A DNA stretch of 64,000 nt, taken from assembly GCA_921293015.1 (NCBI GenBank), contig OV121089.1:44649220-44713219 (forward strand), in the 5' to 3' direction. Below are positions 3,201 to 59,900 of the stretch, one piece after another (positions within the stretch are counted from its first letter, which is position 1; each line of letters starts with the position of its first letter). Under the pieces are notes generated by a model. The model was given only the letters and a program-made list of their open reading frames with translations, was not told the DNA's origin and ran no database searches. The stretch comes from Phorcus lineatus. Taxonomy: Eukaryota; Mollusca; Gastropoda; Trochida; Trochidae. The position numbers were made by a program, and so were the translations under genes.

Positions 3201-6200
3201 TTGCCTTGTTCCAAGAAAACTAGTAACAACATTTCAAACCTGTGTTAGCAAGTTTCAAACTTATCCTGTGCTTATTTGGAAATTGTTTTTCTCCTTTTCC
3301 TTGATTTTCATTTACATTTTGTCAGTTGACCTGTGTTTTGCTGAAATTGGACTCAATTGTCTTATTATTTGATTGTTATGAAGCTTTGAAAATAAGTAAA
3401 CTGACCAAGTATAAATCATGAGATGTTTTTCAAACAAGAGCTTTAAACAAAGGTATTGTTTGACCCAACTAGTCTAAATCTTCTTTTGAAGAGTTCTTTT
3501 CTTGGTACAATTTTATAAAGAAGTTTTAAAAATAACTTTATGATTTTGAAATTTTGTTACTAAATTGTTCACATTATATGTGAAACGTTTGACAGTCGTG
3601 AAAGCTTACTTCAGCAAAACACAACATATTTATATATATGTATGTTTATACATCTATATATCATATTCATGCCTATATACTCTAACTACTAGCTGATCAG
3701 CTAAAGCAATCATTTACTCTTAACTAACACACAGGCTTCCAAAACTGGCCAAAGACCGAGCACACTTAACTTGTCTGCTACCACATCCGCCCTACAGGTG
3801 AGTGGGTCAGTCTAATACCTCTATACTGACATGTGTAAGCAGACTAGTCCATTCCACAATATAGGGTGGAACCAGTGAGTAGATTGGATACCTTTCTATC
3901 TTGAGGAAAACTGTTTTAGATAGCTGTTTTTAATGGTTATGGATTTGGTCTTTAGTGCAGTTTCAATTTTTAAAATTTAACAGATAGATGGCTTTATTAA
4001 CCTGTCCTAGTTGCTACTCTAATATTCACTGGTCAATTTATCATTAGTTTGATGATAAATAGTACAAAATGATTCTTGGTCTTCATTAAAATATTCTCAC
4101 AGAGAACCCTTCAACATTTTTTGTGGATAAACTGAGATTTTATAAGTGTTTCTGTACCAGTAGAGGTATTTGAAGGCAGAATATTCAGAGAGCATTTCTT
4201 GGATTATGAAATAGTCGTCTCCTAGAATTGAGATTCTGAGAGTAAAAAAGTACTATTCTCTTCGAGCAAATATTCTGAAATATCTTTTATTGGATGCCAA
4301 TGTAGCAGAATATCAAAGTGCCTGAGAGTAAATCCTAAGTCCGTTGGTAATCTCCATGGTCTACTAGTATTGTTGAATCTGGTTAAAGCTCTTACTTTAC
4401 ATAGACCAATGATCTCTTAGTAGCACAATCTGGGATACAGTCTCATAATGAACTGAATTCAGTGGTTATTATCCAAGAAGTCAAGATTAAACGTCTTAGT
4501 ACATTCATGTTCTCTGGTCTTTTATTGTCCGAGTCTGACGCTGAATTGTATATCTCAGTGCTCTTTAGTCTCTTTGTATGAAAGAATCTGAGGTTATGTC
4601 TCAGAGCACATCTGGACTGGTACATATGGTTCAATTTTAATCAACTGTCTGGTTAAGATTCTCTCTTTTATATGTCCTGTGGTGTGCATGTGTTGTGGTG
4701 GTGAAGGGATATGCTGTTCTTTCTGCTCTTTCCTCAGTATTCCTCTCTAGCTTGACAATATGGCACAAATCAATACCTAAATACAGTTGAATTTACGTAA
4801 ATATATGTTTTTGTTGAGCAGATATGGTAACAAATTACATCTTGATAAACGAGTAAACTCCAGACTGCTGTGCATAGCTATTTTGAAAACTCTGTAATAA
4901 TGCAAATGATATGAAGAGTGGAAGAAGAAGAGTGAGGATCTGGGAAATGAGAAAATTTTTCCCATCTTAAACGGCCAGTTCGACCGGGTATTTTCTGTTC
5001 CACAAATATTCGGGAGGGAATTCCCTTTTGCACGCGACACGTAACTTTTTTATATATTCGATTTGTTTTCTATTTTCTGTGTTTACAACTTTTTCATGTT
5101 TGGTAATTAGTTGTAATCCGTCCTTCAAACTGAAAAAAATAGCGAAAACAATCGAAGCCACTGACCAGCACTACCAAGGGGCTTAACTCTATTGCGATCA
5201 TGGCGGCCATTAGATTGTTGTCCGCTGCATGATTGATCTGCGTTGTAGTAACCTTGTAGTTACTTGGATGTTTTGATTGTTGGGGATTAATAATGTAAAT
5301 AATGTTTGCATAACTAATTATGACATCTCAAATGGCTAAGCTCAATCAATATGACACTGAGGAGAAAAGTGGCTTCGCTCCGGCTTCCCAATATAAACAA
5401 AGATTCGTCCAGACTATCGCACTCCAAATTACTCACAGTGCTGCAGTTTTCCGTACATTAAAAACTTTATGTGAAGTAACTTAGATATCTTTCTTAAAAA
5501 AGAAGAGTTTTACTATGAGTGAAGTTGTGCGAAGTCGAGGGCGACCGCGAAAGTACGATGGAAATTCGCCTGCGAGACGACAACAAGAGAGAAATGCCAA
5601 GCGGATTTATTTGGGAGACCTTGCTCAAAAATGGAAAGACCTGAAATCGGCACTGAAATTTACGGACTTTGAACTGGCAAAGCATTTGCTTGACAACCAT
5701 GAGTTGACATGTGACTGCAAGTAAGTACAACTGTTTTTACTGTTGTTCACATGATAGGCTAATATAAACATGGTTATTTCTCTGGATGAAATTGCTTTTA
5801 TCAACATGTCAATTCCATGATTTCATAAAGGAGTGACTGTTTTTGAAAAAAATGAAGGGAACTGTACTGTACAGTAGTTGTCAAAATTTGATGGGCATTG
5901 AAAAGATAGGTTCAACCAAAATTATTACTGCATAGTAAGGAAATACACATTTGAAGTTCATATATATCATAATTTTATTTCAGCCATAAGTAATACTAAT
6001 TGAAACGAATAAATAAATATAATTCAAGTATTATTGTAAGAATTCAATTTTAATGCTGGCATATATTGTTTAGCATTTTAGAGCTTATCATCTCCAACTT
6101 TGATAATATTGATGAAACTGAATGTCTTTCATGTCCTTTTCCTTATAGTCCATATATGTATACTAACTGATTCAATTATTGTTGTAATTTGCAGTTCCAA

Positions 6201-9200
6201 AACAGACCTGCCAGCACCTGAGATGCTGGGGGATCCGTGGGACAGAACCCCCCAACAAGAATGTCTCAAGCTCCCAACAGTGAGCACACCTCAGAAAAAC
6301 CGAGATTTGGATATCATATCAAATGTTGCTGGTGGGTATTGACATTTTCAAAGGTATAAAATACAATATAGATGCTAGAGAGGTCTTTCCTGATATCAAG
6401 CATATATCAATAACATTAATTTTAAACAGTTATGAATATCTGAGATTTGCTGAGGATATATTTCACTCCCATCAATTATGTCATATAAGCATTGTTTGAT
6501 GATGTCAGGGCCTTCGGCCTTGTTCACAACACCAGAGTTTTGTTTAGATGTCAGAGCGTTCATTGATACTATCAGAGCTTTGTTGCTTTTGTTCAGTTTA
6601 TTATTTTCAACAGATCTCAGTAATTACCTCTGAATTACCTCCCAATTTATGATTTAGTTTATGGTCCTTACAGAAAGTATGAACATGGAGATGTTTATTA
6701 CAGAAATTCTGTTTCTATGCCCTTGACAGAAATTAATTTTTTATGAATCTATATATGGCCATACATGATTATATTACCTAATGATCACCTAATGATTTCT
6801 AATTTTCAGATCTGTCATTGATATCTATGCCGAGTTCTCCTACCAGTGACATGCTGTGATATTATAAAATTGTGCTTCCATAACATAACCTGTTCAATGC
6901 TGAGCTCACCTGAGAATGAATATACATGGTCTGGGTTTAATTACATATTAAATATGAATAAGCTTGTGTATGTACATGTGCTGTTGTATTACATAGACTG
7001 AACATGATGAAATCTACCTTTGTCTTACTTTTTATACACAACAATCTGTCCCAGACAAAATCCATGACATAATATGATCATGTTTTATGTGCACATTTAG
7101 CGATCATTTATGATAAAGTTGTTTTATAAATAGACCTGTAAATCTAGCTCAGGACAGTGTATGCTAGCTTTATTTATTGATATATTTAGATGTTGTGGTT
7201 TTATTACACATAGGAGATGTGAATAAATATATATACGTACACAGAAAAAATCATTAACTTTGTAAGAATATGCAAGTCCTTTGAATAATCTATTCTTATA
7301 TACATATGAAGATTAATACATATATACAAATGAAGATTCTATTCTTATATACATACGAATAAATAAAAAAGTTGACACTCCATAAAATGTCTTGTCTTCA
7401 CTGTACTACCAACTTCTAGAATACCATTTTATCACATTTGTTGTGCATGATAAAATATCCATGTACTGGATTCAATTATATTTGATGGATCACATCTATT
7501 TTTGGCTACTCTTTGTTTGAACATAACAAATTAAATAAGAGGCGCTGAACGAAAGCCTGTGTATTGTCCATCTGTAGAGGGGTAACGTTGTCTGATTGCT
7601 AAAACCACGCATGAAGGGACAACTTTCCTTTGTCCAGCACGCAAAACACCGTATGTCATCAGGATGAATTGTCTGTATGCTGTGTGTCGAAACATACGAT
7701 TATTTCTCACATGGTCGTAGGCATATAAATCGTTCCTGTAGGCTCCGGCTGCGTCGAGAACATCTTCATCCATAACAACACGATTGAACTTTTCTTTAGT
7801 TGTAACACACTGTCCTCCCCTCTTTACACAACACCTGTTCTCGGCTTCTGTGGGCATTGGCTTGCAATTCCCACAATGACACCACCTAACTGGAGCTTGG
7901 TCTGCAGGGGGCTGGGGATCCGGATCATCAAAGGCTGATACTGCTGTCTGAAGTGCTGTGTCATCCCGCAAGATCATCTTAGTCAGTAGCTCCCTTTTCG
8001 CTACCTCGTCCAAACCGTCAATGTACTTCTGCAATTGTAATATCAAAATAAATACAAAAAATTCAAGAATCAGATGTTGGTAATGGTAATGTACTGACCA
8101 AGGTTTGCATTAATCAATTCGATGTCACAATTGATTATGAGCTGGGATAATTGATTTGACACTCGTCTTTGTTGAGAAATATCATATACAATAACATGTG
8201 TACATGATAATTAATTCCTAAAACTTACACATATAACAATTGAAAGCAACTTACTACTCACAGATGTGAGAAATTAAAACTGATAATAGGTTACCTGGAC
8301 TTTCAACAAGCTTTCAGGTGTTAGTTCCGAGGTGGTAGATGTAGGCTTGGCAGATGTCTTGGCCGATGCAGGCTTGGAAGATGTCTTGGCCGATTTCTTG
8401 GCTGATGCAGATGCAGACTTGACTTTAGATCTTGCAGGTGCAGGTAGTTTTGAAGACGCTGGCTTGATTTTGGAGGCGGTAGAAGGAATTGGTATTTTCG
8501 ATTGTTTGCGGACTTTGGTGGGAATCTCTGGTACATCCAGCGGTAGAAACCTCTGCAAACAGGATCATAATTTTAGATATAGTCACTATTAACGAAAACA
8601 TATATCTTAACTTCATTTAGGTTAATTCTGTTGAAGATGCTTTTTAAATATGCCAATATGCTATATGTTATTGTCCAAATCAAATATATAGGGCAATATA
8701 TAAGATATAACATTACATTAATATAACCATGTATCATGAAAAAACAAACCTTTCTCTGCCTATAGTTTCCTTCTTGGTTCCTCACAAACTAAAATGAAAA
8801 AAAAATAATAATAAAAAAGTTTATGTCAAACGGAATACCAGAGCAAAGCAAGAAGTGAATATTTATAATAAAAATAACTATTTACGAATATGAAATATTT
8901 TGATATTCTACATTATGTGATAGTAATGTTTCGTATACAAAGTCATAATAATTGGAATGAACTAATACATTTTTCAAATGTATGCCTATAATTTATGAAT
9001 CAGCACATATATGACTTGTTGCACTGACAGCTCGCCATGATCGAAATTGAGGAAAAAACGCATGGTCATCTGTATTTATATGTTCATTTTGATTGATTCG
9101 TGGACATGTCACAATGTCCCTTCTCTTTTGACACTGGCACATGACCAAGTACCCCGCATCACCCCTCAGACCCATTCGACACGCTGACACAAACGTGATT

Positions 9201-12200
9201 GTCGCCATGTTGTGAAAACATGCAGCGTTGCATTATGGGAAGGGACTTTTCTCATTCTATTTATAGATCTACTTAACTGCTGACGCACTGTATCTAAAAA
9301 TAGCTTCGTTAGCAGCATAAGCTTATCGCTGAAAACGTAATCGAACTGGCCGTTTAAATTACAAGACCTATACTAAACTACAAGTGTAAATGTATCAAAA
9401 TATTACACTTATTACATTGTAAATGAGATTTCATCTTTCATAGGATATTGTTGCAAACACTCGTAATTCTAAGGCCTCAATAATAGATTTTATCCAGTTA
9501 GTTTGGGTTTCATGTGACTGAATATTTAGAAATTTGATTTCAAACTGAGAAAAGAGAACTTTTAACGCAAGTTATTTAATCAGCCAATATATAGATTAAA
9601 AGGAGGAAGTCAAAACAGGTTAATACAAGTGACTTGAAAGTTGTGGCTGTGAGTCACAATGAAATGCCTGCCATGTTGCAGAAAGCGCTGAAGGAAAAGG
9701 AAGAGCACATAGAACAGCTGCTGAGGGAGAGAGATCTCGAGAGAGCGGAGGTGGCTCGAGCAGCAGCCAAAGTTGATGAGGTAAGGGACTTAACTCTTGT
9801 TATCTAACTTTTGTTTTCTCTTCCCCAAATTGAGGAATTGTTTGAAAGTACACTTGTTCACAAGAAAATAGCTTGTGAAAAAGATGCTGGGCTAATAAAA
9901 ATGTAAATATCACCAGTCAAATGGATAGCTGAGTTTCAGAAACAAATCAATGATATTGATATACTACTTCCCCGGCAAGGCATAACCTGACCAAGTAACA
10001 CTGACTAGCTCATTTAAGTCCTGTAGCATTCTGTAACTTTTGCTGTCAACTCTATAGGCTATTATTGTGCACAGCAACAAGACTTGAAATAGCTAGTGAA
10101 TGGTACTTGCAACTTTCAAGGGAAATTTGTTGATAAATTAGCAACCTCAAAACTTGATTTGTTCCACTTTTGTCTGCAGAACTTTTCTCCTAGCAATACA
10201 AATCCTAATTTTTTCTCTAGGCTTTCTCTGCTAGCCTGCTAACCTTATATCACTAAGGTAGCCTTAGTGCAGTGTTAAAGAATGGCACTAAGGCTAACCT
10301 TAGTGTTAAGTTGCTTTGTGCAACAACCCCATGGTCTCAGTGATTTTTGTCTCCCGCAGCAATGCGGAATGGGGGACTATGAATTCAGCGGCGTATGTCC
10401 GTACGTACGTCCGGATTTTTGTTAACACAATAACTCATGAAGCTTAGCACCTAGAGTTCATATTTTGTGACAGCCTTCAACGGAGGAAGACTCAGAGGCA
10501 AGTCGACATTGGTGACCTTGACCTCATTTTCAAGGTCACCACAACACTTTAACCACTGTGTAATACATTGATAAAGCAATATCTCGGAAAGCTTAGCACC
10601 TAGAGTGTTCATTTTTAGTGACAGCTTTCAATGGAGGAAGACCTAGAAGCCAGTTGATTTTGGTGACCATGACCCCTTTTTCGAGGGCACCACAACACTT
10701 TGACCACTTTGTAATACATTGTTAACGCAATATCTCGTAAAGCTTAGCACCTAGAGTGTTCATATTTGGTGACAGCCTTCAACGGAGAAAGACTCAGAGG
10801 CAAGTCGACATTGGTGACCTTGACCTCATTTTCAAGGTCACCACGACACTTTGACCACTGTGTAATACATTGTAAAAGCAATATCTCGGAAAGCTTAGCA
10901 CCTAGAGTTTTCATATTTGACGACAGCTACGGCGGATGACTCAGAGACATTGAAAATAAGGTCAAGGTCACCATGACACTTTGACAATTTGTAATATATT
11001 ATAAACGCAATATCTAATAAAGCTTAGCATCTAGAATCATAATTTTTCTCGAAATACATCATAATCAAGAGAAGATTCTCAATTGATCATGACAAGACGC
11101 ATCAACTTACAGGCAACATTCATTGTAGCAAAAGATCAATAATATTGATTATGCCAAATATCTCATAACGGCTTGTTACATTGCCATGTTGGTGGCAAAC
11201 ACGTGTTGACTTTGTGTTAATCATCTTACCTATGAAATACAAGGAATTATTCAGATTTTAAAAAGTATTTATTCACCTTGCAGGCACGACACAGAGGACC
11301 AGATCCGACAGTTGAGAGTTATATCCCTCTTATATTTTTTTCTTACTTCAGGCGGAGGGGGCGCTGGTGAGTGAGAGGCATGACAAGGACATGATTATGG
11401 CCGATACAGAGGACCAGATCCGACAGTTGAGGGAACTCGTCCTTGAGTTGGAAAAGGACAAGAAGTCACTTGCTGTCAAACTGGAGGAAGAGAAGAGGTG
11501 GGTGGCAGTGTTCAAATTTTCCTCTTCAGTGAGACTAGTGCGTGTTATAATTTAAAATTCATTACAAGACTATGTTAATGTCTGTAGAACTAAATAGGGA
11601 ATTAAAGTTACATTCATCAGGTGTTTCATTGTCATGGGTAAAAAAGTACTGAGGTTACATTACATGGGGAGGGGGGAGAAAGGGTTGTGCCCTTTTTGTT
11701 ATATGCAACTTATTTCATGCTGATCTCGTAACTATCTTGATCTTGAAATAAGAAAACCATTATTGTATGGTGGCATTTCTTCAACATAACATTTTTATTT
11801 ATCTGCATTATTCTGCTTTAAAAGTCTTTGTCCACCTATAAAAATCCTGTAATAACTGCTCTTTTATCTTGAGTAACAATTTAAGTTATCTGTGATTTAG
11901 AAATAGTCTTGCAGCAGTTGATCCTACAAGCCTTCCGTATCTAAAATATTTGAATATATTATGTTATATATTTGAATATATTCTTTTTTCAGAAAAGTTG
12001 AAGATTTGCAGTTCCAGATAGAAGAGGAGGTGATAAGCAAAGATGACCTAGAGGTAAATTAAGTGGCTTCCTGCACACAATTATTTGAAGGAATAACATT
12101 GACTGGAATAGAGAACAAGTTCTATGGATTTACAACTTCTTCATCAGGATTGCAAGGTTTCGGTGTAGATACTAAGGGCTATTGGACATGATTTTGAAGT

Positions 12201-39200: not shown

Positions 39201-41165
39201 AGCCAGTGTGCAGTACTGCTCAAGTGATGTTCTTTCCTCTATCCTTGCATGAAGCAAGAAAACAGCATCTCTTTCTTTACATAATTTGGTATAAAGCCAC
39301 TGGTACTTGAAGCCCGGCCTTCCGGGGTACAAGCAGGCATTCCACCAATTGAGCTACATCCCACTCTTTTGGTTTTGATCCTTGTAAAGGGCTCATGAAG
39401 TCTTCTCACCTTGACACCTGGTTACCATATTTACATACATTTCTTTGACACATGTTGAATTCATGTAATAGCTGACAAAGGTAGTCTTAATGATAAGGGA
39501 TGGTACTCCAATGACCTTTGTCTTAGGATGATTTGTGCTACAGGCCCTATATTAACAGATCCATAGTGTGTATGGGAGTATGGATCAGGTGCATCTTACC
39601 CAAGAAGGGTCAAAATAATGTATATTCACTCCTTGAAAAGGTTTGTTGGTGATCACAGTAGCATCTTATTGAGTGCATCCCCCTCAAACAAAAATCTGAT
39701 ATTCAGCATGAATATGAGTATAACGTGAGTGAATTAATTTCATTTGGTTAACTAAACGGTGACATTTAAAGTGGATAAGAACCCAGCATTCAAATTGAAT
39801 TAATAAAATCATTAAATTAATATCACTTTAATTCAAAAAAGGACTGAGAGACCAGTTCCACGATTCGAAGGTCAATTTACGGAATATATCTGTATCCTTT
39901 TCCAGTCCATCAAGATCTCGCACTGCTCCGCGCCTGTTCTGTGATATCTGTGAAGTGTTTGACCAGCACGATACTGATGACTGCCCGAAACAAGCCATGT
40001 CTGAGAGTCCACCCGCTACTCATTACCATGGCGACAGGAAGTCCACTCGCCCATACTGTGATATCTGCGAAGGTAAGAGGCATTGTTTTCTATTTTGTCA
40101 GCAAGTATATTTACTAAGGTTAAGTAATATTTTGTCATGATGGTGTCAGATATGTTCATAGATATGTAGATATAAAATTAAAAAATCAAGATGTGAATTA
40201 AAACTAAAATAATATCAACTTCTTCCTTACTTAGGTGTAATATCAATTATGAGGTTATCCAGACAGTATGACTAGTGTGTTCAAAGAAATATACTATCAC
40301 ATCAGAAAACTCAGAAAAATCATAACAAATCATATCCATCAACCTTTCCTGCATGTATCATGTGAATGGAGTAAAGATAATATGTGACATTATCACATTA
40401 ACCAACATAATCTCCATCTTCACTAATGTGCAACTTTCATTTGACTCTTTTTGGTTGCTGTTTGCCAATGTGCATAGTGCATTTCTGACACACCCTGTGT
40501 ACTGCCGTCAATCACAGCTATCTAGAACTGTAATCTTCAACGGTGATTAACTACGTCATGCACAGTTAGTTTTTTTCCTTCATTCTTCTGCTGCTTCAGA
40601 TAAGCTAATTTTGATTATATACAAGAAGGTTTGGATAAGTTAACTAAATTTTATTTTGAAGGCAAATTGATTTGAAACTTTCTGTCATCTCATTATAAGC
40701 CTTGTGCTATGATGTCTGATAAATAGGTATTTCATATCATTTACATTCTTAACATTTATTCTATCTATAATTTGATAGTCAGATTAAATATCTGTTGAGT
40801 TTATCTGAGGCAGCAAAGTGAAGTAGGGAAATGAGGATATTCCAATACTAGCAATACAAATGATAATGTATCTGTAATGAATGCAAACATATGTACCTGA
40901 AATGTGCTCATCTTATTTTTGATGAAGACTTTTTCATAAATTTTGATCTTTCTTTAAGAATATACACATTCTAACAAATGATCAAATTGCCATAATATCA
41001 AATAAAAAGGTATATCCTCAAATCTCCACACAATTCACCATGTTGTTGAGTGTGCAATGCTCTCATGCAGCCTGTGATGTCAGCCACCCTTGCAGCATTG
41101 TTGCTCTTTGCATTGCAGTGTTCGGTCATTCTACAGAGAGCTGTGACGATGAAGTAACCTTCTGA
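2..41165 (+). CDS. CLIP1: CLIP1/CLIP-170 orthologue, 3' part (26 coding exons, 5' end outside window)
   Basis: Microtubule plus-end tracking protein that binds tubulin and EB tails (C-terminal EEY/F) through CAP-Gly domains and recruits dynein/dynactin partners through its zinc knuckles. Exons: 2-246, 589-817, 3735-3797, 9682-9780, 11352-11497, 11993-12053, 13300-13404, 13944-14096, 14762-14878, 21074-21131, 21890-21973, 22810-22877, 24699-24787, 30680-30845, 31686-31901, 32253-32456, 32802-32939, 33348-33442, 33972-34092, 34603-34655, 37304-37421, 37950-38121, 38743-38795, 38954-39078, 39906-40072, 41119-41165. All join in phase with GT-AG ends and give about 1063 residues: CAP-Gly 2, Ser-rich linker, long heptad coiled coil, two CCHC knuckles, stop. 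Identity rests on stretches close to vertebrate CLIP-170, such as [33 protein letters not shown] and [18 protein letters not shown]. The first CAP-Gly domain lies to the left. Alternative exons in the large introns could be missed. Confidence 0.95.
589..817 (+). CDS. CLIP1: CLIP1 exon B: end of CAP-Gly 2 and Ser-rich linker
   Basis: The acceptor TTTGTAG completes the split Arg and reads [17 protein letters not shown], which closes the CAP-Gly fold. A Ser/Arg-rich linker follows ([20 protein letters not shown]), matching the basic Ser-rich region that strengthens microtubule binding in CLIP-170. The main donor is CAG|GTACAT at 817/818. A second good donor, CGG|GTAAGG at 784/785, lies in the same phase and would drop 11 residues ([11 protein letters not shown]), so alternative splicing is possible. 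Confidence 0.93.
818..3734 (+). other. CLIP1 intron B-C (2.9 kb)
   Basis: AT-rich intron. Apart from the MITE at 1750-1880 I see no coding or structured element. Confidence 0.8.
1750..1880. mobile_element. Short TIR element (MITE), about 130 bp
   Basis: A perfect 15-bp inverted repeat, CAGGGATTGGGAAAG at 1751-1765 and its reverse complement at 1865-1879, bounds a 99-bp non-coding interior. One base further out the ends read TAT/TAC, so a TA target duplication (1748-1749 and 1881-1882) is possible. The small size, perfect ends and lack of an ORF fit a non-autonomous DNA transposon. The superfamily is not assignable: CAGGG ends occur in hAT-like elements, but no 8-bp duplication is visible. 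Confidence 0.65.
3735..3797 (+). CDS. CLIP1: CLIP1 exon C (63 bp, 21 codons)
   Basis: Reads [20 protein letters not shown] plus Q in frame between CACACAG and CAG|GTGAGT. It aligns with the short linker before the ALQEALKEK start of the CLIP-170 coiled coil. Phase 0 at both ends, so it could be skipped without a frameshift. Confidence 0.85.
3798..4966 (+). other. CLIP1 intron C-D, left flank of the mobile unit
   Basis: AT-rich, no recognisable feature. The short ORFs here lack coding character. Confidence 0.6.
4967..4983 (+). repeat. Left terminal inverted repeat with TTAA
   Basis: TTAAACGGCCAGTTCGA, a perfect inverse match to 9341-9357. No extended similarity between the subterminal regions is visible. 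Confidence 0.65.
5515..6859 (+). CDS. Small AT-hook protein, three exons, inside the mobile unit
   Basis: Exons 5515-5722, 6195-6330 and 6811-6859, joined at AA|GTAAGT, TTTGCAG, G|GTGGGT and TTTTCAG, give 130 residues with a stop at 6857-6859. The start [16 protein letters not shown] contains an AT-hook core (RGRPRK, residues 8-13), which binds the minor groove of AT-rich DNA. A basic stretch ([12 protein letters not shown]) and a predicted helical segment ([20 protein letters not shown], then DNHELTCDC) follow; the tail is Ser/Pro-rich and ends [10 protein letters not shown]. It is convergent with the P2X7-domain gene and both sit inside the same inverted repeats, so I infer a nuclear DNA-binding role for the element. 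I do not recognise a named family. The start is the first ATG of the open exon; an upstream non-coding exon is possible. Confidence 0.7.
6860..7530. other. 3' ends shared by the two convergent element genes
   Basis: AT-rich, non-coding. AATAAA-like signals for the plus gene lie near 7222 and 7358, and TTTATT (AATAAA on the minus strand) near 7170. The two transcripts would overlap antisense here if those signals are used. Confidence 0.5.
7531..9208 (-). CDS. P2X7 cytoplasmic (ballast)-domain protein without a channel, inside the mobile unit
   Basis: Certain minus-strand exons are 8788-8750, 8552-8295 and 8028-7531, all phase 0, giving 264 residues to the stop. Exon 8552-8295 is a low-complexity basic Ser/Ala/Lys/Pro tract. 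The last exon carries the P2X7 C-terminal domain: Cys-rich [19 protein letters not shown], then [31 protein letters not shown] and GQYTGF, matching the human P2X7 WCRCGNC, ACITTSELF, AYR, LPSCCRWRIRKEFP and GQYSGF. In P2X7 this domain binds a dinuclear zinc site and guanine nucleotide; here no P2X ectodomain or membrane helix precedes it. The first exon is unresolved: the 71-codon ORF starting ATG at 9208 is the nearest candidate but has no clean phase-0 donor. Such stand-alone domains are common in invertebrates, and their function is unknown. Confidence 0.8.
9341..9357 (-). repeat. Right terminal inverted repeat with TTAA
   Basis: Exact reverse complement of 4967-4983, followed by ATTACAAG. 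The P2X7-domain gene promoter must lie within the roughly 130 bp between this repeat and 9208 if the first exon is placed correctly. Confidence 0.65.
9682..9780 (+). CDS. CLIP1: CLIP1 exon D: start of coiled coil
   Basis: Reads [20 protein letters not shown] then [13 protein letters not shown], nearly identical to vertebrate CLIP-170 at the coiled-coil start. Acceptor TTGCAG, donor GAG|GTAAGG. An in-frame ATG (MLQ) lies just upstream at 9673, so this exon could also begin a CAP-Gly-less transcript. Confidence 0.96.
10251..10305. repeat. CTAAGG foldback
   Basis: CACTAAGGTAGCCTTAGTG (10251-10269) and CACTAAGGCTAACCTTAGTG (10286-10305) are inverted copies with one extra A, and each arm is also nearly self-palindromic. 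It resembles the core of the element at 32642-32768. Confidence 0.6.
10424..11045. repeat. Satellite-like tandem array, about 151-bp unit, 4 copies
   Basis: The unit runs from AATATCTCGGAAAGCTTAGC through CACCTAGAGTGTTCATA, a GACAGCCTTCAACGGA block and a TTGGTGACCTTGACC block to ACACTTTGACCACTGTGTA. The GGTGACC marker falls at 10511, 10662 and 10813, a spacing of exactly 151; the last copy is shorter (marker end at 10972). Units 1 and 3 keep an inverted pair GGTGACCTTGA / TCAAGGTCACC. The flank at 10330-10424 (GTCTCCCGCAGCAATGCGG and a TCCGTACG run) belongs to the same dispersed repeat and resembles the one near 56560. Confidence 0.85.
11291..11316 (+). repeat. Intronic 26-bp copy of exon E
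   Basis: Identical to 11406-11431 inside exon E, which encodes TEDQIRQL. The identity stretches to 29 bp with one mismatch. It lies 115 bp upstream of the original and has no splice site of its own. Confidence 0.85.
11352..11497 (+). CDS. CLIP1: CLIP1 exon E: coiled coil
   Basis: Acceptor TTACTTCAG; reads [20 protein letters not shown], then [20 protein letters not shown] and ends LEEEKR, donor AG|GTGGGT (phase 2). Matches the [13 protein letters not shown] junction of CLIP-170. Confidence 0.94.
11498..11992 (+). other. CLIP1 intron E-F
   Basis: AT-rich, with nothing recognised. Confidence 0.7.
11993..12053 (+). CDS. CLIP1: CLIP1 exon F (61 bp)
   Basis: [20 protein letters not shown], close to vertebrate [20 protein letters not shown]. 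Acceptor TTTTTTCAG, donor GAG|GTAAAT. Confidence 0.95.
12106..12229. repeat. Perfect 34-bp inverted repeat with 56-bp loop
   Basis: Arms 12106-12139 and 12196-12229 are exact reverse complements (34 of 34 bases); the left arm begins GAATAGAGAACAAGTTCTAT. The loop contains, on the minus strand, CCGAAACC and CCTGATGAAG, which recall hammerhead-ribozyme blocks, but in the wrong order. A transcript would form a very stable hairpin 50 bp after exon F. Confidence 0.9.
12690..13298 (+). repeat. CATTC-rich pyrimidine tract with a 20-bp minisatellite
   Basis: About 600 bp of C/T-rich plus strand with recurrent CATTC. At 13171-13270 it resolves into five units of exactly 20 bp (TCCTTCCTTCACCCATTCAT with a few substitutions) that end 29 bp before the exon G acceptor. 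The 136-codon open frame across it is a low-complexity artefact. Confidence 0.9.
13300..13404 (+). CDS. CLIP1: CLIP1 exon G: coiled coil
   Basis: Acceptor CTCGTCAG; reads [20 protein letters not shown], then [15 protein letters not shown], donor AAG|GTGAGT. Highly charged heptads; ADKLEQELQ parallels the ADKLQRELE of CLIP-170. Confidence 0.93.
13405..13943 (+). other. CLIP1 intron G-H
   Basis: No feature recognised. Confidence 0.7.
13944..14096 (+). CDS. CLIP1: CLIP1 exon H: coiled coil
   Basis: Reads [20 protein letters not shown], then [20 protein letters not shown] and [11 protein letters not shown], donor AAG|GTAGGT, 51 codons. Its 3' end is the source of the decayed tandem copies that follow. 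Confidence 0.92.
14049..14390 (+). repeat. Tandem decayed copies of the 3' end of exon H
   Basis: The segment starting AACAAGATCAAAACATTCGA at 14049 recurs at 14136, 14212 and 14338, with a further partial copy at about 14278. Copy 2 keeps the reading frame ([17 protein letters not shown], one Arg-to-Lys change) and the donor AAG|GTAGGT; copies 3 and 4 have lost frame or donor. Spacing is 87, 76 and 126 bp. The copies sit within the intron, and copy 2 has no usable acceptor in the right phase. Confidence 0.88.
14762..14878 (+). CDS. CLIP1: CLIP1 exon I: coiled coil
   Basis: Acceptor [28 protein letters not shown], then [19 protein letters not shown], donor GTG|GTACGT. 39 codons, phase 0 to 0. 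Confidence 0.92.
16236..16383 (-). other. Possible antisense coding exon, Ser/Gln-rich
   Basis: On the minus strand, GTATATACAG precedes an open stretch reading [20 protein letters not shown], then [20 protein letters not shown], up to AG|GTTCCA. Base composition is richer than the surrounding intron and the codons look protein-like. No partner exon was found, so it could be a relic or chance. Confidence 0.3.
17656..17831 (+). repeat. 44-bp tandem repeat, 4 units
   Basis: GGTGTTCT-like starts at 17656, 17700, 17744 and 17788 (spacing exactly 44); each unit holds TCTAAAATTTGTGTGTACAA or a variant and ends ATACTCAT or similar. Confidence 0.85.
17855..17928 (+). ncRNA. Hammerhead-ribozyme-like core within a 59-bp direct repeat
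   Basis: 17881-17908 reads CTGATGA, A, GGAGTC, AACG, GACTCC, GAAA: the two conserved catalytic blocks around a perfect 6-bp stem II with a four-base loop. There is one extra A between CTGATGA and the stem, and stems I and III are not convincing. TCATCAAATTAACAG flanks it at 17855-17869 and 17914-17928, as expected for a dimer remnant of a 59-bp unit. Hammerheads are known in Penelope-like elements and retrozymes of animals. It may be a decayed, inactive copy. Confidence 0.45.
19895..20550 (+). repeat. About 169-bp tandem repeat, 3 to 4 units
   Basis: ACAGATAGTC starts at 19895, 20064 and 20236. Units share GGGATAAATC, ACATAATTATAGTGTTGGGT, TTCAAGGGTATC and TTTTATGAA blocks; a truncated fourth copy begins near 20395. 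Confidence 0.8.
21074..21131 (+). CDS. CLIP1: CLIP1 exon J (58 bp)
   Basis: [19 protein letters not shown], donor G|GTAGGT (phase 1), acceptor TATTACAG. Confidence 0.85.
21890..21973 (+). CDS. CLIP1: CLIP1 exon K
   Basis: [20 protein letters not shown], then RSMKSKGS; phase 1 at both ends (acceptor CCTTTCAG, donor CAG|GTGGGT), so it can be skipped in frame. Confidence 0.88.
21974..22809 (+). other. CLIP1 intron K-L
   Basis: A short (GGTA)n tract near 22178; otherwise nothing. Confidence 0.7.
22810..22877 (+). CDS. CLIP1: CLIP1 exon L
   Basis: [20 protein letters not shown] then NKL, acceptor TCCTCAG, donor CTT|GTACGT. Coiled-coil heptads. Confidence 0.9.
22878..24698 (+). other. CLIP1 intron L-M
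   Basis: AT-rich; no feature recognised. Confidence 0.7.
24699..24787 (+). CDS. CLIP1: CLIP1 exon M
   Basis: [20 protein letters not shown] then [26 protein letters not shown] parallels MKMSGDNSSQLTKMND of CLIP-170. Donor AG|GTTAGT, phase 2. Confidence 0.95.
24788..30679 (+). other. CLIP1 intron M-N (5.9 kb)
   Basis: AT-rich intron. The only structured element I see is the hairpin at 29151-29208. The phases of exons M and N fit directly, so no exon is required in between. Confidence 0.75.
29151..29208 (+). repeat. 38-bp hairpin between 10-bp direct repeats (SINE-tail relic)
   Basis: AAACAATACC at 29151-29160 and 29199-29208 flanks a 38-bp segment with 8-bp inverted ends (AACGCCGC 29161-29168, GCGGCGTT 29191-29198). 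GCTGAAATATTGCCCAAGCG then GCGTTAAAC resembles the 3' end of a repeat I remember from gastropods (AATATTGCTGAGTGCGGCGT). Confidence 0.55.
30680..30845 (+). CDS. CLIP1: CLIP1 exon N
   Basis: [20 protein letters not shown], then [20 protein letters not shown] and [13 protein letters not shown]. Matches the [24 protein letters not shown] region of CLIP-170. Donor GTG|GTGAGT. Confidence 0.94.
30846..31685 (+). other. CLIP1 intron N-O
   Basis: No feature recognised. Confidence 0.7.
31686..31901 (+). CDS. CLIP1: CLIP1 exon O (72 codons)
   Basis: [20 protein letters not shown], then [20 protein letters not shown] and further heptads to ERETMK. Acceptor GTTGCAG, donor AAG|GTGTGT; phase 0 both ends. 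Confidence 0.93.
31902..32252 (+). other. CLIP1 intron O-P
   Basis: No feature recognised. Confidence 0.7.
32253..32456 (+). CDS. CLIP1: CLIP1 exon P (68 codons)
   Basis: [20 protein letters not shown], then [20 protein letters not shown] to QAKKE, donor GAG|GTCAGT. Coiled coil. Confidence 0.93.
32642..32768. mobile_element. Foldback/MITE-like element, 127 bp
   Basis: Imperfect inverted ends (GGGCCTTCCTCCTTTCATAA against GGGCCTCCTTTCACAGA read from the right) with nested inverted CTAAGGGTAACCT / ACTAAGGTTACCTTA inside. Shares the CTAAGG core with 10251-10305. No clear target duplication. Confidence 0.55.
32802..32939 (+). CDS. CLIP1: CLIP1 exon Q
   Basis: [20 protein letters not shown], then [20 protein letters not shown] and EELQKE; donor GAG|GTAGGA. 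Confidence 0.93.
32940..33347 (+). other. CLIP1 intron Q-R
   Basis: No feature recognised. Confidence 0.7.
33348..33442 (+). CDS. CLIP1: CLIP1 exon R
   Basis: [20 protein letters not shown] then [11 protein letters not shown], donor CT|GTGAGT (phase 2). Confidence 0.92.
33443..33971 (+). other. CLIP1 intron R-S
   Basis: The open frames at 33462-33701 and 33756-34025 are intronic read-through. Confidence 0.7.
33972..34092 (+). CDS. CLIP1: CLIP1 exon S
   Basis: [20 protein letters not shown], then [20 protein letters not shown]; acceptor CTACTCAG, donor AAG|GTAAGG. Confidence 0.93.
34093..34602 (+). other. CLIP1 intron S-T
   Basis: No feature recognised. Confidence 0.7.
34603..34655 (+). 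CDS. CLIP1: CLIP1 exon T (53 bp)
   Basis: [17 protein letters not shown], donor CG|GTATGT (phase 2), acceptor CTCTTCCAG. Confidence 0.9.
34656..37303 (+). other. CLIP1 intron T-U (2.6 kb)
   Basis: AT-rich; nothing recognised. The flanking phases fit directly. Confidence 0.7.
37304..37421 (+). CDS. CLIP1: CLIP1 exon U
   Basis: [20 protein letters not shown], then [20 protein letters not shown]; acceptor ACTTGTAG, donor AAG|GTGAGA. Confidence 0.92.
37422..37949 (+). other. CLIP1 intron U-V
   Basis: No feature recognised. Confidence 0.7.
37950..38121 (+). CDS. CLIP1: CLIP1 exon V
   Basis: [20 protein letters not shown], then [20 protein letters not shown] and [13 protein letters not shown]; phase 1 donor CAG|GTCGGT. 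Corresponds to the end of the CLIP-170 coiled coil before [14 protein letters not shown]. Confidence 0.93.
38122..38742 (+). other. CLIP1 intron V-W
   Basis: Loosely repetitive TGGCAATACCT/ATCTTTG motifs (38190-38540), too degenerate to define a unit. Confidence 0.6.
38743..38795 (+). CDS. CLIP1: CLIP1 exon W (53 bp)
   Basis: [18 protein letters not shown] between TTCTAG and CAG|GTTGGA; it precedes the VEFLNS exon in phase. Confidence 0.88.
38954..39078 (+). CDS. CLIP1: CLIP1 exon X: conserved C-terminal helix
   Basis: [20 protein letters not shown], then [20 protein letters not shown]. Near match to the [20 protein letters not shown] segment of CLIP-170. Donor TC|GTAAGT. Confidence 0.97.
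39079..39905 (+). other. CLIP1 intron X-Y
   Basis: Holds the tRNA-derived SINE (39296-39364); the rest is AT-rich with no other element seen. Confidence 0.7.
39296..39364 (-). mobile_element. tRNA-derived SINE head (minus strand)
   Basis: Minus strand reads GGGATGTAGCTCAATTGGTG, with an A box (TAGCTCAATTGG, 39356-39345) and a B box (GCTTCAAGTACC, 39313-39302) at tRNA spacing. The anticodon stem and acceptor stem do not close, so it is not a working tRNA. Confidence 0.6.
39906..40072 (+). CDS. CLIP1: CLIP1 exon Y: zinc knuckle 1 and half of knuckle 2
   Basis: [20 protein letters not shown] then DCP forms knuckle 1 (C-x2-C-x5-H-x4-C). [17 protein letters not shown] starts knuckle 2, whose His and last Cys lie in the next exon. 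In vertebrates this region binds p150Glued and LIS1 and folds back on the CAP-Gly domains. Donor GAA G|GTAAGA (phase 1). Confidence 0.97.
40073..41118 (+). other. CLIP1 last intron
   Basis: AT-rich, nothing recognised. Confidence 0.7.
41119..41165 (+). CDS. CLIP1: CLIP1 last coding exon: end of zinc knuckle 2 and stop
   Basis: After CATTGCAG, phase 1, the exon reads [15 protein letters not shown] and stop, completing [14 protein letters not shown] (C-x2-C-x4-H-x4-C). Vertebrate CLIP-170 has CEICEMFGHWATNC and ends DDETF, so both the knuckle and the EEY/F-like tail are conserved. This 47-bp exon gives no usable ORF by itself, but the homology is decisive. Confidence 0.95.
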
Positions 41166-56900: not shown

Positions 56901-59900
56901 ATTGCGTTGATAAGATAAACTTTTGAGTAACACTCCCTTGTGGATGGCGAAATTTAAAAAAGATAGGTTGTAGTTAACTGGACAAATACATAACTATGTA
57001 AATGTATACACCTTCACCTTTGTTATGCATTAGCATACAGTCTATTTACATCTTACAAAAGCATTTCATATATAAGAAAAGTCACAGTAATAACGGTAAA
57101 TAATAATGAAATAATAAAGTGAAAAACAGTATATTCAACATTATCAAAACAATAATGGCATATTGGAGATTTGTTTATGTCAAAAATATGCTTGTATGCA
57201 TTTTGGCTACTGTTGCCAAGTGTTAGGAATTAAAATGATTTCATCTTTCCGGTCTCTTCTTTAAATCTCGATATGTTTTGCCACTTTAGGATTTTCGTTG
57301 AACACATGTTCGGCAGGAGTGTCACTTCCCCTCTGAATATGTAACAATTGCTACATTGATTTATTTTTGACTGATTAAATATCTGATTAAAATGTACAAG
57401 AGTTCCCAATAGTAACATGTGCTCGTGAAAGTGCAGACTTGATATGATATTTCCTTTCGTTACCAGTGAGATCCACATGAATCGAAACCCAAAATAAATG
57501 TGAAATTTACCATATGAAATGTCATTGTAATTGCCAAGCAATCCTAAGCGAATAGCCTTAACTTGTGTCAAATTACTATGTCATTACTATGGTTTTCTAT
57601 CAAAGGCAATGCTTTAAGAATAGCAGTTTAATTCTGCTGCAAAGATGGATTGTAAAGTTGACGCGCCTCAAATACTTCTCACAATGGAACACAAAATGCC
57701 AACCCAAGACACTCAGAAACTGGATCTGTAGAGGAATCACTTTTACTATTTGTTCTTCAAGAGTATTATGTGTTCGTGAAATCTTCTGCAAATGCTTTGA
57801 CAATGACATGACTCACCCGTTTGTCAACTAATGTGACCGACTCTGAGTTAGTTGGTGGTTGTGTTTTATATCTTGAGTATTGCACTGATGTATTTGTTGT
57901 GGGATTGTTAATACAAAAGTGATTAGCCAATACTTCAATCACACATAAATATTCAATGAAATTATTTAATACGTTTTTTGCAGAAGCGTAGTTAGTCGAA
58001 GATTTTAAGGAAAATGAGAGAGATTTGCTATTCTGAGCCTTCAAGTTGCAAAATAACGATTGGTGTTATTGGGTTAGGTTTAAACCTATGGAACATTTAG
58101 CAGTTAAATTTGAAATGAAAATTAAAGAAAGTTTGTTTGCAATAAATAAGACTCCTACAGACTTTGTACAACTGGTTACCCATTGCCTTCTGTGCCTCTG
58201 TTTGAAGTTGATTGTGTCGATCAGGGCACGATCGCCTTTATCCAGATTCAACTTCTAGCTAAACTCTTTGTTGCTATGTTTTTGTTTTTAAGCAAGCTGC
58301 CATTCGCAATCGAGTTGAAGGGAAGCAAATTTCGCCCCTTTGTAAGATGAGCTCGTCCACTTGTATATACGAAAGCATTTTGAATTATCCATCAGAACAA
58401 TGAAATTTTGTCCGTTTAAAGATCATGGTGTGTTAAAATATTTTGAAACAATTTAAAGGTTTGAGACAAGGCAAAATGACTAAAACGTTAGCAAGCAGTA
58501 CTATAGCGGAATTGTTTTTATCAATTCTTTGTGAAAGTCATTACACATTCATTGGCATATATATATATGTGTGCGCCAGAACCCAACTTAAAGTTTTATG
58601 ACAGTATTGTCAGGCATGTGTCCTCATTATAACTGCAAAATGATTGTGTATGACAAAGAGGTTGTCGTGCTCGTATATTTTAGAATGGTAAATCCGGAAT
58701 AAGGATTAACCACTATATTTAGCTCGCCAATTGCAAGCCTCTTAAAATACAATTCCTAATTCAGGATATTTACCATCCAAAAACACACTCGCACTCGCAT
58801 GATAATCTCTATTGTCTTTAGAATGGTCGTCTTTATTTTGGCATTTATTTATTTAAAAGCTGCTTTTGACTCATATTTTGTAACATGTACGCATATATGT
58901 AGATAGATGTTTGATCTTAGACGTATTTTACAACCCCCTGTGTTACCCACCACAGCCCCTGCGCATCTGTCAAACGCATTCTCTTTAGCACATTGGGCTT
59001 CTTAAACTCACTAGTGCACACCAATATTTCGTAAACACAACAAATGCTCAGATACTGCATATATCTCGATATTATTCACGACCCTCACTCAAGTAATCTA
59101 TCTCGTAAGTTATTTAACAAATATTTACGTATTCAGGCAGTAAAGTTGATTTCTAAAGACCGGAAGTATTTAATGTTACGTTACAATAAATCCGCATGAA
59201 CTACGATATCGGAAATATTAAAATATTGCTTATAAACAGAAAAGCGGAAACGGCAGCCGCTTTGGTCAATCTAATAACAATGCTAATACTGTGTTATTAA
59301 ATCGGTTTATTTACAACATTGCTTTCATAAAACGTATTTCATTCTTTGTTCTCAGTTTAGAGTTTAGGTAAATTCAATAGCTGCACATAATACTAGTTCA
59401 GCCGCGTTCAACTGTCCATAATTTATCCGTTTTGTACACCGCTAAACATAGATTTTTATATGTCCAAGCCGACAGAGGTTGGCTAAACTTTTTCATTGTT
59501 GATTGCAGGTCAACTGTAAAGAATTTTAAGTATTTCTTTGCATCGACAGAAAGCTTAAGTGAATGCATAAGTCCTCTTAAACCTTTAAATAGCCAATTTA
59601 AACCGTAAAAGCGTGCACTAGTGCCTTTAAATATCACCTGTACTTTGAGATCAACGACTTTATATACGTGAAACACTCCCAAAACACATATCTTTACTTA
59701 CATTATCAGTTGAGCGTGCTCTTGGGGTTACCATCTCTCATTCCTGAAAATCGTTAAATCGATGTCCTCGGCTCAACGTTCAAATACCTGTTACCTGAGT
59801 GATTAGGGTCACTTAAGCGCTGCTCTTCTTGACGACTTACGCACGACAAGTTGAAGGTATGTTTAAAGACTTAACGAGACAAAACAAATTAGCAAATATT

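Follow-up and report, generated by a model that had tools for sequence, protein, structure and literature searches.

A probable Kolobok-type DNA transposon of Phorcus lineatus that encodes a P2X7 ballast protein, with a deleted copy in a CLIP1 intron

The element in the CLIP1 intron

The DNA studied here is a 64-kb stretch of the genome of the gastropod Phorcus lineatus (contig OV121089.1, positions 44,649,220 to 44,713,219), called the window below. It carries an element at 4971-9353 that very probably is an internally deleted copy of a TTAA-specific DNA transposon. Positions 4967-4983 read TTAAACGGCCAGTTCGA, and positions 9341-9357 hold the exact reverse complement of this sequence. Each of these segments combines a TTAA target-site duplication (TSD), located at 4967-4970 on the left and at 9354-9357 on the right and assigned to no strand, with a perfect terminal inverted repeat (TIR). 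The left TIR, 5'-ACGGCCAGTTCGA, occupies 4971-4983 on the plus strand, and the right TIR occupies 9341-9353 on the minus strand. The TIR proper is 13 bp, and the adjacent inner bases are unlike (CC vs TT). The TSDs are read from the sequence, and empty paralogous sites of another copy, L025, have one TTAA (see below). The original prediction described a 13-bp perfect inverted repeat, or 17 bp with the flanking TTAA, and our inspection of the sequence agrees; the same ends recur genome-wide.

The element was also predicted to reside in an intron of CLIP1, a sequence-based placement that is supported by matches in the flanking open reading frames (ORFs). In ORF 578-907 there is the end of a CAP-Gly match, which does not reach the cut-off (E = 0.0063), and CLIP1 zinc knuckles are matched in ORF 39832-40137 (E = 3.4e-11).

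Two convergent genes lie between the TIRs. Coordinates preceded by F refer to a complete copy of the element, F, which is described in the next section. On the plus strand, a predicted GT-AG exon at 5515-5720 (F545-750) supplies a start codon and an AT-hook-like motif, RGRPRKY, which the Pfam AT_hook model matches weakly (on the exon, E = 0.02 and 15.2 bits, where the cut-off is 17.4). A predicted second exon at 6195-6331 (F1225-1361) is followed by a third at 6810-6854, which retains F1840-1884 of F1840-1915. This exon is cut by a 5,530-bp internal deletion (F1885-7414), marked by 5 bp of filler at 6855-6859 (no strand), that removes exons 4-10 of a transposase gene.

The minus-strand gene, KolX, has its stop codon and its P2X7 ballast domain in exon 4 at 7531-8028 (Pfam P2RX7_C, E = 5e-35 on the exon and 6.8e-35 for the ballast gene in the window). 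The gene model of F further predicts exon 3 at 8295-8552, a linker rich in Lys, Ser, Ala, and Pro, and exon 2 at 8750-8788. According to this model and the alignment to F, exon 1 is reduced to 23 nucleotides at 9016-9038, namely the start codon and the next 20 nucleotides. The rest of this cysteine-rich exon was taken by a 1,232-bp deletion (F9574-10805), at which 9016-9018 is a 3-bp overlap.

Comparison of the sequences shows that the unit in the window is a non-autonomous, internally deleted copy, which has neither the catalytic core nor, for the most part, the cysteine-rich exon. The two convergent genes of the original prediction are both present, but neither is complete. The accompanying statement that neither is a recognisable transposase is misleading, as the AT-hook gene corresponds to transposase exons 1-3, and it is the catalytic exons that this copy has lost. 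Without them, the window copy would be movable only by proteins from other copies.

The complete element and its classification

The host assembly (958 Mb, 74 contigs) was searched with the element, which gave at least 52 matches from the 40 scored of 411 candidates. Exact matches to the 22-mers at its ends, TTAA included, number 208 on the left and 207 on the right, whereas reversed controls give 0. Thus, the inverted ends are not due to chance. Both ends are available for 20 copies, the window copy among them. In 19 of these, TTAA is found on both sides, and the flanks are otherwise unrelated. The exception, L013, has AGTT on its left side. The expectation that several copies would share these ends, with TTAA on each side, is therefore borne out.

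Copy F (L011 together with L030) is 11,143 bp long and has TTAA on both sides. Two spliced genes in convergent orientation are predicted in it, both with GT-AG introns and uninterrupted reading frames. The plus-strand gene consists of 10 exons, the first of which are those of the AT-hook gene, and codes for a predicted DDE transposase of 669 amino acids. The motifs GDGR, VTD, DVWH, H-x4-H...C-x-H, and TGSLE follow one another in this order in the predicted protein, and the catalytic residues were assigned by reading these motifs, not by structure. The protein matches the Mutator-like Pfam model PF20700 (E = 3.9e-12), and the AT-hook reaches E = 0.27 on the whole protein. In Pfam up to E = 10, the Mutator, MULE, and AT_hook models are matched and no piggyBac model is. 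A comparison with the PDB yields no meaningful relative, only fluorescent proteins with E = 0.37 and above.

The minus-strand KolX gene of F has four predicted exons and codes for 320 amino acids. The cysteine-rich exon comes first and is followed by a short exon, by a linker rich in Lys and Ser, and by the ballast domain. The predicted protein matches P2RX7_C with E = 2.1e-34 and, when spliced, P2X7 chains in the PDB with E = 1.3e-19 and with its cysteine clusters aligned. The cysteine-rich exon has a weak match to the Pfam TCR (CXC-like) model (E = 3.1) and no meaningful match in the PDB. The ballast domain shares with those of P2X7 and Nanor the patterns WCxCxxC, CCx4GxC, and PSC, as well as a Y(S/T)GF end (PMC7016195). 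Unlike the P2X7 receptor, this KolX lacks the P2X channel part and is a transposon protein.

We consider it about 95% probable, judging from sequence, that the element is a TTAA-specific cut-and-paste DNA transposon of the Kolobok type, belonging to the KolX-bearing Kol0 lineage, and that the window holds its deleted copy. The Kolobok characteristics found are a 4-bp TTAA TSD, a DDE transposase with DxxH (here DVWH) between the second D and E, and an H2CH pattern between DxxH and E. The Kol0 characteristic found is a second protein, KolX, with the P2X7 ballast domain; Kojima and Bao (2022, PMC9587614) report that KolX of the Kol0 Kolobok lineage adopts the cytoplasmic ballast fold of P2X7. The transposase would bind the ends and then cut and paste the element, and KolX might assist in trans as a zinc-binding and perhaps DNA-binding partner. 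Deletions would arise when repair of the gap left by excision fails, producing junctions with overlaps or filler. The family to which the window copy belongs is called family A below.

The ballast exon in deleted copies

In family A, deletions have taken the transposase core from almost all copies, whereas the ballast exon persists. This quantified bias is new, and we found no report of it in the open-licence literature on KolX, Kolobok, and P2X7 and transposons. The observation is based on the pairing of element ends and on whole-genome exact counts rather than on the first 20 copies (L009-L028), which are skewed toward copies with an intact 2,159-bp block because only 40 of the 411 candidates were scored.

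Exact-match counts along F run from 208 at the left end through 62 at about F1.25 kb to 7 at the first catalytic Asp (F3104), and from 12 at the last catalytic Glu (F5650) to 101 in the cysteine-rich exon and 207 at the right end. The ballast exon is present at no fewer than 79 family A loci, counted as profile matches. The ballast exon is full at 77 A loci. At 71 of them, an intact cysteine-rich exon lies upstream on the same strand, and the window copy is one of the other six.

Element sizes were obtained from the first 100 listed of the 207 right and of the 208 left ends, accepting only pairs closer than 20 kb. This procedure gives 89 pairs, with 11 right and 11 left ends unpaired, five of the latter lying beyond the last listed right end. 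The sizes are bimodal: 56 elements measure 698-1137 bp (39 distinct sizes), 29 measure 4.7-11.1 kb, and only four fall between, at 2.3-3.9 kb. All 29 long elements have a ballast match (damaged in two), and none of the four intermediate ones has. Three of these four have breakpoints inside KolX, and the fourth (L036) is a short copy enlarged by an insert of about 2.8 kb. One pair on contig C9 has the full 11,143 bp and lacks the 26-mer at the first catalytic Asp.

The whole ballast exon is kept in 26 of 31 deleted copies longer than 1.2 kb, a set that omits the insert-bearing L036 and the one full-size pair. Uniform deletion, modelled as one deletion per copy with inserts ignored, predicts 13.6, and 26 was never reached in 200,000 simulations. 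Under the same model, the KolX side is wholly untouched in 22 of 31 copies, with 13.4 expected (P = 0.0008).

Each of 19 of the first 20 copies has a distinct deletion of its own, and the remaining one is F; the available sequence of L028 does not extend to its left end. Among 31 junctions in 26 sequences, 23 show an overlap of 0-5 bp, seven contain 1-9 bp of filler, and one contains 210 bp. This count leaves out the second L036 alignment and both of those for L016, which are distorted by the identity filter (a further retained block). A 9,665-bp copy (L022 with L029) is without 1,476 bp (F3257-4732), the segment that holds the second catalytic Asp. Three short copies are plain deletion derivatives in which F1 to 548-615 is joined to the last 137-412 bp. 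Deletion derivatives of the type known from miniature inverted-repeat transposable elements (MITEs) and P elements likewise keep both ends in their short copies and have junctions with microhomology or filler. Unlike these, family A also has an intermediate class that keeps one whole accessory gene. Short copies may have reached their size at their present sites and are therefore no proof that the element can move without KolX DNA.

The bias could well be purely mutational, an explanation to which we give even odds, if, after excision, repair synthesis that starts at the right end covers a longer distance than that starting at the left. The counts behave in this way: from the left they are down to 62 at 1.3 kb and 7 at 3.1 kb, and from the right they stand at 101 at 0.35 kb, at least 79 at about 2.8 kb, and still 12 at 5.5 kb. 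In addition, breakpoints are distinct in the copies that were read, and most junctions have short overlaps. The two size classes (0.7-1.1 and 4.7-11.1 kb) with so little between them, and the excess of copies with a whole ballast exon over the uniform expectation, speak against this explanation, although polar repair could also yield that departure from uniformity.

The other possibility is that KolX is kept because its product pays, with KolX-only elements promoting or restraining the transposase of other copies, or shielding copies from the host. In its favour, most of the family consists of elements that have lost the transposase but retain a KolX gene with both of its ends intact (71 of 77 loci, compared with 7 exact matches to the first catalytic Asp). 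We regard this more tentatively, as a somewhat unlikely account of the sequences. If it is true, the transposon would be a steady supplier of ballast proteins for capture by the host, as proposed for P2X7 and Nanor. The family moved very recently (see below), and at least one copy has both genes in open frames, so that KolX could be studied as a transposon protein. Family A raises the questions of whether KolX binds the ends, whether it affects excision, and why it is kept when the transposase is lost.

The ballast gene and the transposase in related families

A search of the host genome with the ballast profile PF20478 gave at least 150 matches (150 of 228 candidates scored), and no match was found in 14 control genomes. 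Sorting by score and position assigns 79 loci to family A and 12 to its sister family, B. Another 51 loci belong to neither, and eight matches are second exons of loci already counted. Families A and B were told apart by score, and at least two of the other loci (C13:2927468 and C25:37948178) look like truncated A copies.

Ballast-type families beyond A share its arrangement. At one locus each of families B, C, and D, transposase exons resembling those of A lie on the strand opposite the ballast exon (exons 1 and 2 only in the B copy), and the ballast exons are 29-64% identical to that of A. The same convergent transposase is therefore present in four of the five ballast-type families that were read, and the H2CH pattern (H-x4-H...C-x-H) is found in the transposases of A, C, and D.

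The Pfam profile PF20700 has 82 matches genome-wide, none of them within 12 kb of the 79 A loci and one within 12 kb of the other 63 ballast loci. It is too distant for the separate exons of this transposase, and thus the last transposase exon of family D (81 matches) was used as the probe instead. This exon occurs within 10 kb of 70 of the 142 scored ballast loci (A, 42 of 79; B, 7 of 12; others, 21 of 51), where chance would give 0.17% per locus, and the pair is convergent in 70 of 70 cases.

The cysteine-rich exon is common to A and B. A genome search with it (150 of 156 candidates scored) locates it at all 12 B loci, with 69-76% identity and on the upstream side of the ballast exon. A motif scan did not find it in the analysed stretches of the B, C, and D loci, and at the family B locus that was read, the genome search put it just outside the scanned stretch. 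At least 31 further places match the first part of the exon with 40-64% identity (E = 6e-4 to 0.18; for example, C9:48922667, C16:24542625, and C17:29986821), and there may be another repeated family carrying a related cysteine-rich exon.

Because two sister families share the cysteine-rich exon and the ballast domain, and because four of five families have the transposase, the sequences support the view that the transposon carries the ballast gene as one of its own genes and not as chance cargo. The original prediction had allowed for either cargo or a part of the mobilisation machinery. We consider it very improbable that a host cassette of two genes, one for a stand-alone P2X7-C protein and one with an AT-hook, was captured as cargo by an unrelated TTAA element, for example piggyBac. 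TTAA duplications are indeed common to piggyBac, the window copy alone shows no transposase, and Kojima and Bao name a few piggyBac families with a KolX-like protein (PMC9587614). However, the transposase of the full-length copy starts with the exons of the AT-hook gene itself, and three other families with diverged ballast exons have the same transposase on the opposite strand, and all 70 neighbouring pairs in the genome are convergent. Unlike piggyBac, family A also has a transposase that fits the Pfam Mutator-like model with DxxH, and its ballast domain retains the cysteine clusters.

Several points weigh against the assignment to Kol0 Kolobok. The termini read 5'-AC...GT-3' (the ends were found by that sequence), whereas those of Kolobok are given as 5'-RR...YY-3' (PMC9587614). 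Family B seems to begin with 5'-AG, as judged from one copy whose right end was not located. A THAP domain is usual in Kolobok transposases (PMC6004289), yet the family A transposase, whose N-terminus is AT-hook-like, matches no THAP model in Pfam at E values up to 10 with the HMMER filters on. The cysteine-rich N-terminal exon of KolX may be a further difference. The exon models of F are predictions from sequence, the Kol0 assignment was made by motifs and gene content rather than by a transposase tree, and the role given to KolX is conjectural. No transposase exon is found within 10 kb of 72 of the 142 scored ballast loci, which include deletion derivatives such as the window copy. Finally, in the fifth set (L041 at C5:46757000-46763000 and L042 at C1:35821500-35825500), tblastn detects no clear transposase. 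Family A is best called a Kolobok-type (Kol0-like) family whose termini depart from the sequence given for Kolobok.

Loci L041 and L042 carry only the C-terminal part of the ballast domain (about 141-192 of the profile), and TGA occurs inside several places of this repeated set. The set may represent the KolX-like protein reported from piggyBac families.

P2X7 plays an important part in inflammation, and it was long unclear where its unusual cytoplasmic tail came from. Stand-alone ballast domains were described by Rump et al. (2020, PMC7016195), in whose main text the string 'transpos' occurs 0 times. According to Kojima and Bao (PMC9587614), such proteins had not been recognised as parts of transposons, P2X7 originated when a P2X4-like gene was fused to KolX, and Nanor is likely a second domesticated KolX. 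The proposal that mobility explains the copy number of the ballast domain, and offers a source for the tail of vertebrate P2X7, agrees with that work. The reading of the ballast gene as a transposon part is therefore supported and already published, and the original prediction derived it again from raw sequence. As a caution for genome annotation, 112 of the 142 scored ballast loci belong to A or B by score or have a transposase exon beside them.

Insertion sites and recent activity

Empty sites are available for two copies, which lie in older repeats with uninterrupted members elsewhere. The insertion site of L025 is matched by window positions 59405-59626 and by L014 251-471, which align straight across one TTAA. 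The site of L021 matches an uninterrupted repeat member, L009 5-141, in which the target reads TTTA. These empty sites are paralogous repeat members rather than orthologous loci, and neither is the CLIP1 intron. Thus, the prediction of empty sites is realised, among paralogues, by the two members matching the L025 site, with a single TTAA each. The segment at 59405-59626 of the window belongs to a dispersed repeat into which a family A element has inserted at L025, whereas the site in the window is empty and has one TTAA.

Copies of family A are almost identical. In blocks of at least 99% identity, 17 mismatches were counted in 135,481 aligned bases among 26 sequences, with L011 as the reference and L016 dropped, and this argues for a very recent burst. 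On this sequence evidence, the family is large, very young, and very recently active.

That the matching ends stem from recent segmental duplication rather than transposition is the least probable alternative and can nearly be dismissed: local arrays exist, for example on C2, where about 34 kb hold five copies of 742 bp, and on C15, where three copies follow one another at intervals of exactly 6,707 bp, but flanks differ among 20 copies, the element stops exactly at the TIR, next to which 19 of them have TTAA, and the L025 site has two uninterrupted paralogues with a single TTAA each.

The fixed spacing is seen at C15:39374476, 39381183, and 39387890 (6,707 bp twice) and at C29:4014425 and 4021573, and family B is likewise repeated at C12:37534689 and 37541116. 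This suggests tandem multimers of the element, like those described for KolobokP. The five 742-bp short copies at C2:65768323-65801956 were probably produced by local duplication. About 1 kb beyond the element in the window is a tandem array of 151-bp units (10419-10927, 3.4 copies).

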